NCBI GenBank assembly: GCA_013140705.1 | Contig: JABFSH010000020.1 | Location: 124,001-188,000 of the forward strand | Length of the DNA: 64,000 nucleotides | From: Methylococcaceae bacterium | GTDB lineage: Bacteria > Pseudomonadota > Gammaproteobacteria > Methylococcales > Methylomonadaceae | Direction: 5' to 3' | In this document: positions 27,639 to 31,911 of the stretch, piece by piece | Position numbering within the stretch: position 1 is the first letter of the stretch | Layout: the number at the start of each line of letters is the position of its first letter | Notes under the pieces: generated by a model | What the model was told of the DNA's origin: nothing | The model's database searches: none | What the model saw: only the letters and a program-made list of their open reading frames with translations | Translations under genes and position numbers: made by a program

Positions 27639-28250
27639 ATGGCCATTCCCCCTGAACTCGAAGCGCAGATTCTGCGTTATTATCATGCCGAAAAATGGCG
27701 AATCGGCACGATAGCGACGCAATTGGGCGTCCATTACGACACCGTCAGCCGTGTCCTGGCTCAAGCCGGGCTGCCCAAGCTCGGTGCGGCACGCCGTGCG
27801 TCGGTGATCGATCCGTATTTACCGTTTATTCGTGACACCTTGGAAACATTCCCGAGACTGACCGCGAGTCGGCTCTATGGCATGGTGAAGGAATGCGGTT
27901 ATCCCGGTCGTCCCAGTCACTTCCGTCATTTAATCTCGTTGCATCGGCCCCGGCGGAAAGTGGAAGCCTATTGTCGTTTACGGACTTTGCCCGGCGAGCA
28001 AGCGCAAGTCGACTGGGGACATTTCGGGTATCTTGACATCGGCCGTGCCCGTCGACCGTTAATGGGCTTTGTCATGGTGCTGTCCTGGTCGCGGATGATT
28101 TATCTCCGGTTTTTTCTGGGCGCGCATATGGAAAATCTCCTGCGCGGCCACGTGGGTGCATTTACAGCGTGGGGCGGCCTTCCGCGTGACCTTTTGTACG
28201 ATAATTTGAAAAGCGCCGTACTTGAACGGCGGGGTCAGGCCTTGGTCTTT
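27639..28250 (+). pseudogene. IS21-family transposase (IstA), 3'-truncated
   Basis: The first 200 codons match IstA of IS21-like elements. There is an N-terminal helix-turn-helix ([23 protein letters not shown]), then the start of the DDE domain with [15 protein letters not shown] (first aspartate) and [15 protein letters not shown] (second aspartate). The expected continuation with the catalytic glutamate is absent. Near 28240-28258 the frame passes into sequence that belongs to an ABC exporter. The istB partner gene is missing. Confidence 0.8.
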
Positions 28251-28565
28251 ATTCTGCTGATGGGGCGGAATTGGCCGGCATCCGATGGAGATTTTGAAGA
28301 AGTTAAAGACTGATGTGTGGAATTGGATTTGGGTGAGTTGCTGGAGCGAATGCCGTCGGGCACTATGCAAATGGTGGGTGAAACTGGATGGCAGTTTTCG
28401 CACGGTGAACGTAGTCGTATATTCTTGGCAAGAATGTTACTACAAAATACGCAATTGACTATCCTGGATGAAAGTTTTGCTGCCCTAGATCCGGAATCAC
28501 TGGAGAAATGTTTAAACTGTGCGTTTAGGAGAGCAAGGACTTTACTTGTGATTGCGCATCCTTGA
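28251..28565 (+). pseudogene. 3' end of an ABC exporter ATPase, with in-frame stop
   Basis: The reading frame first encodes [21 protein letters not shown], then a TGA at 28311-28313. In the same frame it continues CVELDLGELLERMPSG, WQFSHGERSR (the ABC signature, here SHGER), LTILDESFAALDPESL (Walker B and D-loop) and LVIAHP (switch histidine), before a normal stop. So one nonsense codon interrupts the tail of an ABC ATPase domain, and the rest, including Walker A and membrane part, was lost at the IS21 junction. It points toward the small peptide genes on the other strand and may have been their exporter. Confidence 0.75.
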
Positions 28566-28669: not shown

Positions 28670-28807
28670 TTATATGCCTGCACAACGACTAACAGGAACA
28701 ACCACGTCTACGCTGCTATCAGGACTCAGTCCTTTTTTGCTATTGCTTTTGCTATTAATGCCACCGCTATTGACGCCTCCGGCACGCACATTAGATTTAA
28801 CTTTCAT
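28670..28807 (-). CDS. Small peptide 1, candidate RiPP precursor (45 aa)
   Basis: A 45-codon gene, too short for ordinary callers. It begins MKVKSNVRAGGVNSGGINSK and ends in a valine-rich part, VDVVVPVSRCAGI, with a single cysteine at position 42. A GGAG ribosome-binding site lies 7 bases before the ATG. The first ten residues and the bases around the start (TTGGAG, then AATAAA) are shared with a second small gene at 31694-31795. It follows the 609-residue gene by 105 bases on the same strand and is followed by a terminator. A short leader ending AG, then a core of small polar residues, suggests a modified peptide; this is inference. Confidence 0.7.
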   Translation of the reverse strand: MKVKSNVRAGGVNSGGINSKSNSKKGLSPDSSVDVVVPVSRCAGI

Positions 28808-28898
28808 TTATTGCTCCAATCTAATATTTGTTGATTGTTAAGCCATTCAAACAGAATGGCGATTTGCGTTTCTAAGGGTGGATTCCGTTTGGTTGTAC

Positions 28899-28910
28899 AA
28901 AGGTTCAATT
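28899..28910 (-). promoter_or_regulatory. Shared upstream motif AATTGAACCTTT (peptide 1)
   Basis: This 12-mer lies 92-103 bases upstream of peptide 1. The identical 12-mer lies 105-116 bases upstream of peptide 2 (31900-31911), and TTGAACCTT occurs upstream of the 609-residue gene (about 30899-30907). A common promoter element or operator is likely; the GAAC core could be part of an ECF-type -35 box. Confidence 0.4.
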
Positions 28911-28911
28911 G

Positions 28912-30741
28912 CTAAAAATTTTTTTTATGGTCAGAATTTTTTTGCAAAACAATCTCGCTATTTTCAGTAATCTCAATACTGTCTTTGGCTATGGTTATTC
29001 GAATATTGAATAACTCTTCAATGACATCGGTCAGGTAGGCAAGTCGCTTTTCCGCATCGCCATTTAGCAAATTGTGTATGTTAATATCAGCTACATCAAA
29101 AGCGTGAAGCGGGGACGGTCTGCCTAAAAGCTTGTTGATAGCCATTTGGGATTCTTCGGCCAATCGTAAAATGGCCTGCGCTTGAAGAAAGTAGTTCATT
29201 AGACAAGTCAGTAAATTTTCAATATCCCGGTTTTTGGGTGTGTGCAACATCCCACATTTTCGTTGTAATATTGTTCGTAATTGTTTTAAAACACGCTTAT
29301 GGCGTGTTTGCATTACGGGCGCAATCTGTTCAGTTAATGACTTTTGTTCATGCTCTAATCCCAAGCCGATTACGCAATAGTTATAAATGTCAGAATAGCC
29401 CCGTTGACGATTGGCGCGCAAATCTTCTGTGGCGTGATATGTTCGGGTTTTCAGAATATGAATCTGGGTTTGTAAATGTTGATGAAAGGTAGCCAAGGTA
29501 TCTGTTTTGTTTGCGGGCCATGATTCTATAATCTCCCATAGTTGTTCATAGGTTCGCGTCATCACCGGCCAGATCGAAAATACAGTTACATGTGCCATAT
29601 GGCCATAAAGACCGTATTCAAAAGCTGGGTTGATGTTGTCCAGAGCAATTTGAACTTGTGGGTCCAATATTACGGCTTCAGCATCTTTGATGGGTTCTCC
29701 ATTGACGATGACATTCAAAAATTCATCAATCATGGGTTTGGGGCCTGCGCAAACGCCATGCTCTGACGAGAACGCGTGATTGCGTTCGGAGTATTCGTAT
29801 ATTTCAGTGCTGGTGATGGGCGTGTGCGCCGGTCGAGTGGGTTCGCCAAAAGGTACAAAAATCATCTGGTGCATGATCATTCTGAGGCCATCGGTCACTC
29901 GGAATAGCGATGATAAGGCGGGATGCAGTTCGCCGTTTGGCACACGTTGCCTGTGACGCATCAAAAGATAAGTCGGTACGGCCAATACAAGTGTAGAGAA
30001 GGCTTCTAGTCGCCCAACTGTCCAGCCCTCGGGACCCAAAGGAAAGCGTTGTAAATAGGCGTTACGTATCTGTAGTAATGCAACCATCATCTGCGACCAA
30101 TTAGTTCGCATGCACTTGAGAGCAGTGATGTTCATGGGGCGCTCGTCAAGGTAACGACTGCCAGGATAAGGGCAGATTCGCCATTCGGTTGGTATTTCGA
30201 ACCGTAGTGCCTTTGGAAAAACATTGGCTTCGCCAATTTGCCGGCCTTCAGCATCCATAGCGATATGAGCAACCCGAAAAACTGGTATGACCAATTCTAA
30301 ATAACTCAGATCTAATGTACGTCCAGTTAGTACACTAGTGATGGCTTCACATTCAAGCCAGGTATGTGGCACTGAGGTAAATGCAGGGGGGAGCGGTGAA
30401 GGTTGTTTATCCTCAGGTGTAATGATGGGTTCTACATCTGTGTCATCGGCATATTGTAGAATGCCTTCGTCGATAAGCTGTTCAAGTAGTCTTTGAATGC
30501 GCGGCCAGTCATAGCATTGACCCCATTCAGTCGCAGTCTTCGCAACAAAACGCGATTGTTTCGCTAAATTTTCGCCGAATTCAAATAATTCGGGCTCATC
30601 AAACGAAATTTCTTTATCACCATAGTAAAGATGCAGTTCACGTGATCCTGAGGAGTCTTTAGAATACTGGACAATAACTCGCTTATGCAAGGGGAAAACA
30701 AGTTCGTCATCGGCATTTAGTGAATTATGTCGCATGGGCAC
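28912..30741 (-). CDS. 609-residue protein of unknown family, linked to small peptides
   Basis: I do not recognise the family. Residues 1-45 look beta-rich. Residues 48-95 read like a winged helix or RiPP recognition element (PELFEFGENLAKQSRFV, WPRIQRLLEQLIDEGIL), as seen at the front of some peptide-modifying enzymes. The remaining 500 residues are mostly helical, with segments such as ICPYPGSRYLDERPMN, MRHRQRVPNGELHPALSSLF and GVCAGPKPMIDEFLN, but without Walker, radical SAM or dinucleotide-binding motifs. There is no signal peptide and no transmembrane helix. Two tiny paralogous peptide genes lie on either side on the same strand, so it may be their maturation enzyme. Gene-calling confidence is high; function is open. 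Confidence 0.85.
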   Translation of the reverse strand: MPMRHNSLNADDELVFPLHKRVIVQYSKDSSGSRELHLYYGDKEISFDEPELFEFGENLAKQSRFVAKTATEWGQCYDWPRIQRLLEQLIDEGILQYADDTDVEPIITPEDKQPSPLPPAFTSVPHTWLECEAITSVLTGRTLDLSYLELVIPVFRVAHIAMDAEGRQIGEANVFPKALRFEIPTEWRICPYPGSRYLDERPMNITALKCMRTNWSQMMVALLQIRNAYLQRFPLGPEGWTVGRLEAFSTLVLAVPTYLLMRHRQRVPNGELHPALSSLFRVTDGLRMIMHQMIFVPFGEPTRPAHTPITSTEIYEYSERNHAFSSEHGVCAGPKPMIDEFLNVIVNGEPIKDAEAVILDPQVQIALDNINPAFEYGLYGHMAHVTVFSIWPVMTRTYEQLWEIIESWPANKTDTLATFHQHLQTQIHILKTRTYHATEDLRANRQRGYSDIYNYCVIGLGLEHEQKSLTEQIAPVMQTRHKRVLKQLRTILQRKCGMLHTPKNRDIENLLTCLMNYFLQAQAILRLAEESQMAINKLLGRPSPLHAFDVADINIHNLLNGDAEKRLAYLTDVIEELFNIRITIAKDSIEITENSEIVLQKNSDHKKNF

Positions 30742-31418
30742 GCAGTATTAGGGATTAATAATTCTTTTTGCGTTGATCAATTCCATTGATATTGCTGTGG
30801 ACGATCACTATTTTCTTCAAGGCTTGAGTGCCTGAAACAAAATTACTTGACAGGCATAATTTCAAGCTTTTCTTGAGTTAATTTCCAATTAGGGGGCTAA
30901 GGTTCAAAACAACAGAAATTTAATTACACGACACTTAAATGATTGTGCGTACAAGAGTGAAATTAGAGTAATGTTCAATTCAAGTCGACCGGGGAAGTTG
31001 GTCGCCTGTATTCAATTTTTAAATTGCTGTTATTTGGGGGCTTAAATCTGTTGGTGCTTGATAAATGTAAGAGTGAAAACGGGGAATGTTAGTCAAGCTA
31101 AAAGTCAAAGCCTTCGTGACATGTAATTGGTGAGGGCTTCAACAGTCAAGGCTTTAAAGAGTCTTGGTGCTTGGGAAATCATGTGGCGCTACTCTGCGAT
31201 TGCCCTGTTGGTGCTCCAACGGATTTGAATGAATTTAAGTTGTCAGTGATTTTTTGGATCATCAACTTTGTCACGCAAACCACTTAAACAGTTGCATTAA
31301 CTTCCATGCCTCTGTTTCATTATGGAGGTGATGAGTGCACCACAAATGGCGTTTGAGGTGTCACGACTTAGGATTCCGTTAAAAATAACTTCCCGAAATC
31401 ACAAAATCGCCCGGCAAG
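30742..31418. other. Intergenic stretch upstream of the 609-residue gene
   Basis: No gene can be supported in this 680-base stretch. It is A/T-rich, holds the TTGAACCTT motif near 30900 on the minus strand, and must contain the promoter of the 609-residue gene. Nothing else is recognised. Confidence 0.5.
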
Positions 31419-31634
31419 CCGTTCGTGCTGAGCAAAATAAGCCCCCCTTCGGAGGCATGGCGTTACCATGAAACAGTCGCTGTTCGACGTACTTTTTTGT
31501 GTTTTCATATCTTTGCAAGTCATTGATTTTACAAATACAAAAAAGCTGTTTCTTGAGAGCTTGTCGAAGCATGAATGGCTTGCTGCGACGGAGCGGAATT
31601 TTTCCGTCCATCCTTCGACAAGCTCAGACGAACG
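31419..31634. repeat. Dispersed repeat, copy A, with terminal inverted repeats
   Basis: Bases 31419-31572 are nearly identical to 41098-41252 (two substitutions and one extra C). The copy starts CCGTTCGTGCTGAGC, and after a further 50 bases ends GCTCAGACGAACG (31622-31634), close to its inverse. An inner pair GCTTGTCGAAG (31559-31569) and CTTCGACAAGC (31613-31623) makes a REP-like hairpin. Two identical short frames run through both copies but lack gene-like context. It is probably a non-autonomous mobile element. Confidence 0.8.
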
Positions 31635-31693
31635 CAAAAATTTTCTCGGCACCCAATCGGTAAGTTATTTCTTGCCATATCCTTAGTGTAATA

Positions 31694-31795
31694 CTAGGAT
31701 TTCTTAGGTATGACCGGTCCATCAGGGTTTACATTTCTTGGTCTAAGGCCTGAAACACCTTTTTTGCCTGCTTGAATATTTGTTTTAACTTTCAT
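31694..31795 (-). CDS. Small peptide 2, paralogue of peptide 1 (33 aa)
   Basis: A 33-codon gene that begins MKVKTNIQAGKKGVSG and ends GPVIPKKS. The first ten residues match peptide 1 at six positions, with conservative changes at three more (MKVK, Thr/Ser, Asn, Ile/Val, AG). A GGAG site lies 11 bases before the ATG in the same TTGGAG-AATAAAA context. The second halves differ: this one is lysine- and proline-rich and has no cysteine. That pattern, conserved leader and variable remainder, is typical of RiPP precursors. It is the upstream member of the locus; the repeat element lies between it and the 609-residue gene. Confidence 0.65.
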   Translation of the reverse strand: MKVKTNIQAGKKGVSGLRPRNVNPDGPVIPKKS

Positions 31796-31899
31796 GCTTT
31801 TATTACTCCAACGTAATAGAATTGTAACTTTCCGCTTAGTGACGGATTGCAAAAGCAGAAGTTTCGATCTCCTTGTCAGTTAAGGGAAATTACGCTGAT

Positions 31900-31911
31900 A
31901 AAGGTTCAATT
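31900..31911 (-). promoter_or_regulatory. Shared upstream motif AATTGAACCTTT (peptide 2)
   Basis: Exact copy of the 12-mer found upstream of peptide 1, at nearly the same distance from the start codon. Confidence 0.4.

Follow-up and report, generated by a model that had tools for sequence, protein, structure and literature searches.

What is made by a bacterial locus in which two mini-genes that begin alike flank the gene for a 609-residue protein of no known family? We address this question in a 64,000-nt stretch of the genome of a Methylococcaceae bacterium (assembly GCA_013140705.1, contig JABFSH010000020.1, positions 124,001–188,000), hereafter the window, whose numbering is used throughout. 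An earlier note, made from the letters alone, had read positions 28670–31795 as a possible new system of ribosomally synthesized and post-translationally modified peptides (RiPPs). We find that the protein belongs to a gene family whose members are consistently accompanied by small peptide genes, and we regard it as probable that these genes represent an undescribed RiPP-like class, in which a maturase fused to a RiPP recognition element (RRE) modifies a cysteine-bearing core before export. If so, this would be a new RiPP class whose maturase has a catalytic domain without known relative, and a compact one, with one modifying protein and one small peptide, that is present in named strains (Methylomonas koyamae, Methyloglobulus morosus, Rhodoferax lacus and Steroidobacter gossypii).

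Leader peptides and their partner protein

The precursor peptide gene P0001 (28670–28807, 45 amino acids), the 609-codon open reading frame of the putative RRE-fused maturase (28912–30741) and the second mini-gene, P0002 (31694–31795, 33 amino acids), all lie on the minus strand (sequences MKVKSNVRAGGVNSGGINSKSNSKKGLSPDSSVDVVVPVSRCAGI and MKVKTNIQAGKKGVSGLRPRNVNPDGPVIPKKS). The two mini-genes share the N terminus MKVK[ST]N[VI]xAG, a TTGGAG ahead of both starts and the 12-mer AAAGGTTCAATT (28899–28910 and 31900–31911, about 92–116 nt 5′ of the ATGs); coordinates, leader, start context and 12-mer are all as the earlier note had given them. In P0001, the leader MKVKSNVRAG is followed by a Ser/Asn-rich spacer and a core ending in VVVPVSRCAGI, of the Cys-Arg type. 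P0002 has neither a cysteine nor a PVSRC end, and its core is unlike those of the family, so that of the proposed precursor pair both members carry the leader but only P0001 carries the core motif. The position of P0002, 5′ of the 609-residue gene, is that of a His/Asp-rich sister peptide in genome G257 (genomes, contigs and loci are given G, C and L numbers).

The pairing of peptide and protein extends well beyond the window. Among 311 genomes of the order, we found eight full-length homologues of the 609-residue protein outside the window (52–58% identical), and scanning 85,000 species genomes with a profile as guide gave 19 loci, 7 of them already among the earlier ones. The family thus comprises 21 distinct loci, the window and 20 others with full-length homologues, in Methylococcales, Burkholderiales, Alphaproteobacteria, Steroidobacter and Nitrospira. 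A single-sequence search with the protein returned nothing in the genome collection, whereas the alignment-based search did find homologues. The family is rare: in a sample of 369 gammaproteobacterial genomes it is confined to that of the window, viral contigs gave no match, and plasmids gave none save a distant one (25%) in Burkholderia arboris.

The leader pattern follows the protein closely. It occurs twice in the window, against none in 60 order-2 Markov simulations of it, and in 12 of the 311 genomes of the order, where the reversed control pattern has no match; none of the 368 further gammaproteobacterial genomes contains it. Within the order, all nine genomes with the full-length protein have the leader, compared with 3 of the 302 without (Fisher p = 3e-15). 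Across Pseudomonadota and Nitrospirota, a leader mini-gene or close variant lies near the homologue in 19/19 testable loci, a count that excludes L038 and L041, which run into a contig edge (the L046 peptide was read by eye). All 19 therefore show the arrangement by which a RiPP precursor is recognized, a conserved N-terminal leader and variable core beside a putative modifying protein. The earlier note had staked its proposal on further genomes pairing such peptides with homologues, and on these not being a known unrelated enzyme; the pairing is found in every testable locus, and no known enzyme matches.

Each of these 19 loci has one or two mini-genes, which start with MK[VI][KQ][ST].[VIL][RKQ][AG]G or a close variant and encode peptides of 23–57 residues, with variable cores behind a conserved leader of only about 10 residues. 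Cores near the 609-residue gene have a cysteine beside or near an arginine and fall into two types: PVSRCAGI and variants behind a Ser-rich spacer, to which P0001 belongs, and the short GRCSGGIVLA, GFCRGPVIA and GRCGA. Peptides of the P0001 type, ending in PVSRCxG[IA], also occur in L032, L034, L036, L042, L045, L046, L047 and L049. The Cys/Arg peptide of G257 lies about 8.5 kb from the 609-residue gene, on the far side of the exporter.

Predicted fold and comparison with described classes

We used an AlphaFold2 model built on 27 sequences (predicted local distance difference test score 88.9), which replaces a first model with a score of 71.5. Within residues 13–91 the model has strands at 23–28, 34–40, 43–47 and 64–66 and helices at 50–61, 67–72 and 79–91, and this predicted segment contains the three strands and three helices, with a winged helix, of the PqqD-like fold. 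Foldseek matches it to McbB (6gri, probability 0.94–0.97) and, from the first model, to the PbtF RRE (8t19, 0.95). The matches of this region (MINA53, McbB and the PbtF RRE) have probabilities of 0.94–1.00 and weak E-values, and the match is not specific to RREs because a related winged helix is part of MINA53, which ranks first. Residues 13–91 are thus predicted to adopt an RRE fold; the winged-helix segment that had been proposed from the sequence is supported by structure prediction, with this extent instead of 48–95.

The remaining roughly 480 residues are modelled with high confidence as an all-helical domain, for which Foldseek finds no match in the PDB at E ≤ 0.001 and none among viral models. 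The whole protein has no significant Pfam or NCBIfam match and no PDB match by sequence, and no catalytic motif was found, in agreement with its earlier description as a protein of no known family; P0001 and P0002 likewise lack significant Pfam and NCBIfam matches. Ten residues are invariant across the superfamily (D163, R167, G170, E171, G194, R196, N204, G285, Y317 and C331). Distant relatives of the helical domain are stand-alone, unannotated proteins of 363–425 residues without an RRE (L026–L030, L052 and L017, the last, in Burkholderia arboris, having a longer frame than the other stand-alone relatives), encoded beside PKS/SDR, Rieske oxygenase, vanadium-haloperoxidase-like, LRR and JmjC-cupin genes. 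Conservation of D163, R167, E171, R196, N204, Y317 and C331 in these relatives suggests an active site. Outside its peptide-docking domain the protein resembles nothing known, and its chemistry may therefore be new.

In most homologues an N-terminal extension carries the motif CP[MF]H; the extension is missing from the window protein, whose start falls within the motif. Because of this motif and a conserved histidine, we considered the fold of the haem-dependent dioxygenases (TDO/IDO/PrnB) and rejected it, as Foldseek gives no support and some distant relatives lack H159.

RRE-containing RiPP pathways of the PqqD, McbB and PbtF type share with this system a small precursor with a conserved N terminus, whose neighbour is a protein that begins with an RRE-like winged helix and continues into a larger domain, and many RRE fusions to domains without a Pfam match have been noted (PMC12710340). 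Unlike in those pathways, however, the fused domain here matches neither Pfam nor NCBIfam and so is not YcaO, ThiF, radical SAM, ATP-grasp, MNIO or LanM; its fold has no counterpart in the PDB, and the leader is only about 10 residues long. Judged by the modifying enzyme, the system falls into no described RiPP class, having no Pfam, NCBIfam, PDB sequence or PDB fold match; no described class matches the modifying protein, within the scope of Pfam, NCBIfam, the PDB and open-access papers only. Within that scope, the earlier judgement that no described class has this combination is upheld. The motif strings have no occurrence in the open-access literature.

Proposed pathway and state of the window copy

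Neighbouring genes in the family encode HlyD (11 loci), a C39-peptidase ATP-binding cassette (ABC) protein and a second ABC protein (13 loci), and outer-membrane channels of the TolC/NodT type (OEP). The C39 ABC protein scores 67.5 bits for PF03412 and 76.2 bits for PF00005; the catalytic Cys, His and Asp are present in every C39 protein examined (motifs DCG, HF[VIM]V and DP), and complete loci contain the N-terminal C39 peptidase, permease and ATPase of a peptidase-containing ABC transporter (PCAT). A MauG/MbnH-type di-haem protein of about 745 residues is encoded in eight loci; the window's branch has no MauG-like gene nearby. On the maturase tree, MauG with short cores and no MauG with Ser-rich PVSRCxG cores are split on one branch (support 93/92), where shuffling of the two types on the tree gives 5.7 expected changes and 0 of 500 shuffles as low. 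This joint separation is as expected if the peptide and its enzymes co-evolve.

We infer from these associations a pathway comprising leader binding, modification and its site, secretion, a cleavage site and a function for the product. The N-terminal RRE of the 609-residue protein would bind the roughly 10-residue leader MKVK[ST]N[VI]RAG, and the all-helical domain would modify the core at the C terminus, the conserved cysteine next to or near an arginine being the most likely site (here of the PVSRCxG[IA] type). Where the locus is complete, the peptide would then be exported via the C39-peptidase ABC transporter, HlyD, the second ABC protein and the TolC/NodT channel, the C39 exporter probably removing the leader, and in one branch the MauG/MbnH-type di-haem enzyme may also act. 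As a tentative extension, to which we give somewhat less than an even chance, the helical domain would be a new enzyme fold performing an undescribed modification at the Arg-Cys or Cys-Arg of RRE-guided precursors; the RRE-less relatives would use related chemistry on small molecules beside polyketide, Rieske and cupin genes, and the exported MauG-like enzyme would add a second step in one branch.

Several observations weigh against this pathway. The RRE is recognized by fold only, and searching the PDB and Pfam with a profile of 20 domains returns no RRE; the helical domain has no relative of known chemistry, and any modification by it is something we infer. The leader ends in AG (GG in one homologue), whereas known C39 substrates have GG, GA or GS, and it is far shorter than usual, without the hydrophobic residue at −7 named for C39 substrate leaders (PMC10885120). 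The peptides do resemble PCAT/C39 double-glycine peptides in a hydrophobic residue at −4, in small residues at the presumed cleavage site and in the intact catalytic residues of the peptidase, but differ in lacking a position −12 as well (PMC10885120). NHLP/NHLM bacteriocin export (TIGR03794, TIGR03796 and TIGR03797) likewise combines HlyD, a C39-peptidase ABC protein and a second ABC protein, but the scores here are far under the cut-offs (173.5 of 853.3, 107.3 of 709.4 and 38.8 of 156.2 bits) and the precursors lack a long nitrile-hydratase- or Nif11-like leader. In genomes G025 and G028, leader-bearing Arg-Cys peptides accompany the exporter although no 609-residue protein is encoded, and the leader is therefore not tied exclusively to that protein. 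With G108, three genomes have the leader and the same exporter in this way. The conserved leader and divergent core described earlier are thus borne out across loci, with the qualifications that the leader is very short and that it also accompanies the exporter alone; part of its conservation therefore probably reflects export, and its short sequence is probably used by the exporter and, in loci that have one, by the RRE as well. Finally, the 99.97% complete genome of the window contains no exporter of the family beyond a remnant at 28242–28562, the other matches being generic ATPase domains.

Further leader-bearing peptides have cores of their own. L073 (G025) and L074 (G028), which lack a 609-residue gene, encode two to three 22-residue peptides, MKVKSKV[KR]AG....[NQ]RC[ED][TN]FRR (NRCETFRR cores). 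These lie beside genes for HlyD, the C39 exporter, a protein with TPR repeats and, judged from its sequence, an apparent TonB receptor with a signalling domain. Leader peptides of L075 (G108), L076 (G144) and L077 (G257) have His-rich, often His/Asp-rich cores (for example NHGADDAPGHVRREHAGIAGHR), which are possibly metal-binding.

In the window itself, the remnant (28242–28562, plus strand) comprises the C-terminal roughly 107 residues of the second ABC protein (about 710 amino acids). It shares 84% identity with its intact counterpart in the G108 cassette, is convergent with P0001, as in G257, and corresponds to the broken ABC exporter that had been noticed adjoining the peptide gene. A fragment of an IS21-type IstA transposase (27639–28313, plus strand) lies at the point where exporter genes are missing. 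The shared 12-mer appears from its sequence to be the −35 half of a promoter of the extracytoplasmic function (ECF) sigma type; it is present as the earlier note had said, but as a promoter element and not a feature of the peptides. P0002 is preceded by an exact match to the motif TTGAACCTTT-N16-TTAAC (31879–31909, minus strand), the −35 part of which is the 12-mer, and the 609-residue gene by a copy with one mismatch, TTGAACCTTA-N16-TTAAC (30877–30907, minus strand); 5′ of P0001, the 12-mer AATTGAACCTTT (28899–28910, minus strand) is followed by a degenerate −10 half. The window genes would thus be under ECF-sigma-like promoters.

Exporter loss next to the IS21 fragment, together with a P0002 that has no recognizable core, indicates that this copy is probably decaying, or that its peptide leaves by another exporter or route. 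Whether the locus is a non-functional relic with drifting genes, which is compatible with the proposed pathway for the family, we judge to be evenly balanced: the lack of another family exporter in the genome, the missing N-terminal extension of the 609-residue protein, the coreless P0002 and the degenerate −10 half of P0001 favour it, but all 609 codons are open with the residues invariant among homologues retained, P0001 keeps its leader and core, and two promoters are at exact or near-exact consensus. That the frame is open and that P0001 and the promoters are intact speaks against a locus dead for long. Between the 609-residue gene and P0002 there is also an inverted repeat resembling a miniature inverted-repeat transposable element (31545–31640), around CTTGTCGAAG...CTTCGACAAG.

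Alternative roles and upstream control

The peptides might instead be secreted unmodified through the C39 ABC cassette, as bacteriocin-, signal- or metallophore-like products, with the 609-residue protein acting as a leader-binding chaperone or as an immunity or regulatory protein and not as an enzyme. The three genomes that have leader and exporter alone, and a helical domain with neither catalytic motif nor known fold, are consistent with such a role. We nevertheless consider it unlikely, as RiPP maturases are built in this way, with an RRE joined to a large conserved domain, and RRE-less relatives in biosynthetic settings keep the polar invariants D163, R167, E171, R196, N204, Y317 and C331.

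Slightly less likely still is a system connected with copper or haem, in the manner of MbnP/MbnH or CorA/CorB, partly overlapping with the maturase pathway, in which the peptide binds metal, the MauG-like protein is the main modifier and the 609-residue protein is accessory: MauG/MbnH-type proteins occur in eight loci and beside the G108 cassette, where the His/Asp-rich sister peptides (HGADDAPGH cores) share leader and exporter without a 609-residue gene, and both ECF sigma control and MbnH association are known for methanobactin clusters (PMC3621798), but the window's branch has no MauG-like gene nearby whereas the 609-residue protein is in all loci, and Trp, which in MopE is converted to kynurenine, is absent from the short cores of the MauG branch. 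Like the present loci, methanobactin clusters with MbnH/MbnP, MopE/SACCP and CorA/CorB combine ECF sigma control with a MauG-like di-haem enzyme close to a small peptide or protein, and many of their members are in methanotrophs. They are unlike the present loci in that MbnB/MbnC, MbnP and MbnT were not recognized among the neighbours scanned, which are part of all neighbours, and the MauG-like proteins stay under the TIGR04039 cut-off (110.4 of 362.85 bits). A literature search for MauG and RiPPs returned only methanobactin-type papers as relevant.

Returning to the maturase pathway, the timing of production could be approached through the ECF-sigma-like promoter that the genes share and, outside the window, through a covarying pair of hairpins. 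Exact copies of TTGAACCTTT-N16-TTAAC number only two in the window's genome, 5′ of P0002 and of an ECF sigma gene (G000, C42:21471-21501); of the copies with one mismatch, one is 5′ of the 609-residue gene and three are elsewhere, where the reversed control gives two. The motif, exact or with one mismatch, also precedes ECF sigma genes in G108, G144 and G258, and in G258 the sigma gene is followed by genes for a putative anti-sigma factor, a subtilase and TolC, beside that genome's own peptide cluster. Two Betaproteobacterial loci, L032 and L034, encode a histidine kinase and a response regulator of the LuxR type 5′ of the exporter, in the segment that separates it from the maturase gene (scanned in L034; L032 has the same clusters), and control there therefore differs from the ECF type.

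Just 5′ of the ribosome-binding site of 18 other peptide genes lies a pair of hairpins, which recurs before each paralogue. Compensatory changes, which are seen in helix 1, are found in 4/9 pairs (RNAalifold), and in a pair count of which helix 1 alone is used, this helix is paired in 90.7% of cells. These tandem hairpins, about 70 nt 5′ of the peptide genes and often GCCGGCATGGGGCCGGC...ACGTGCGATGGGCACGG (for example, L043:9822-9890), occur in Methylococcales, Steroidobacter, Nitrospira and Burkholderiales, in loci including L033, L034, L035, L036, L039, L040, L042, L043, L048 and L050; they match no Rfam family and are possibly a new regulatory RNA. Between its 609-residue gene and P0001, the window has a hairpin found by eye (GCCATTC-TGTTT-GAATGGC, 28842–28860, minus strand), which is equivalent in place to the paired hairpins of other loci and different in sequence.

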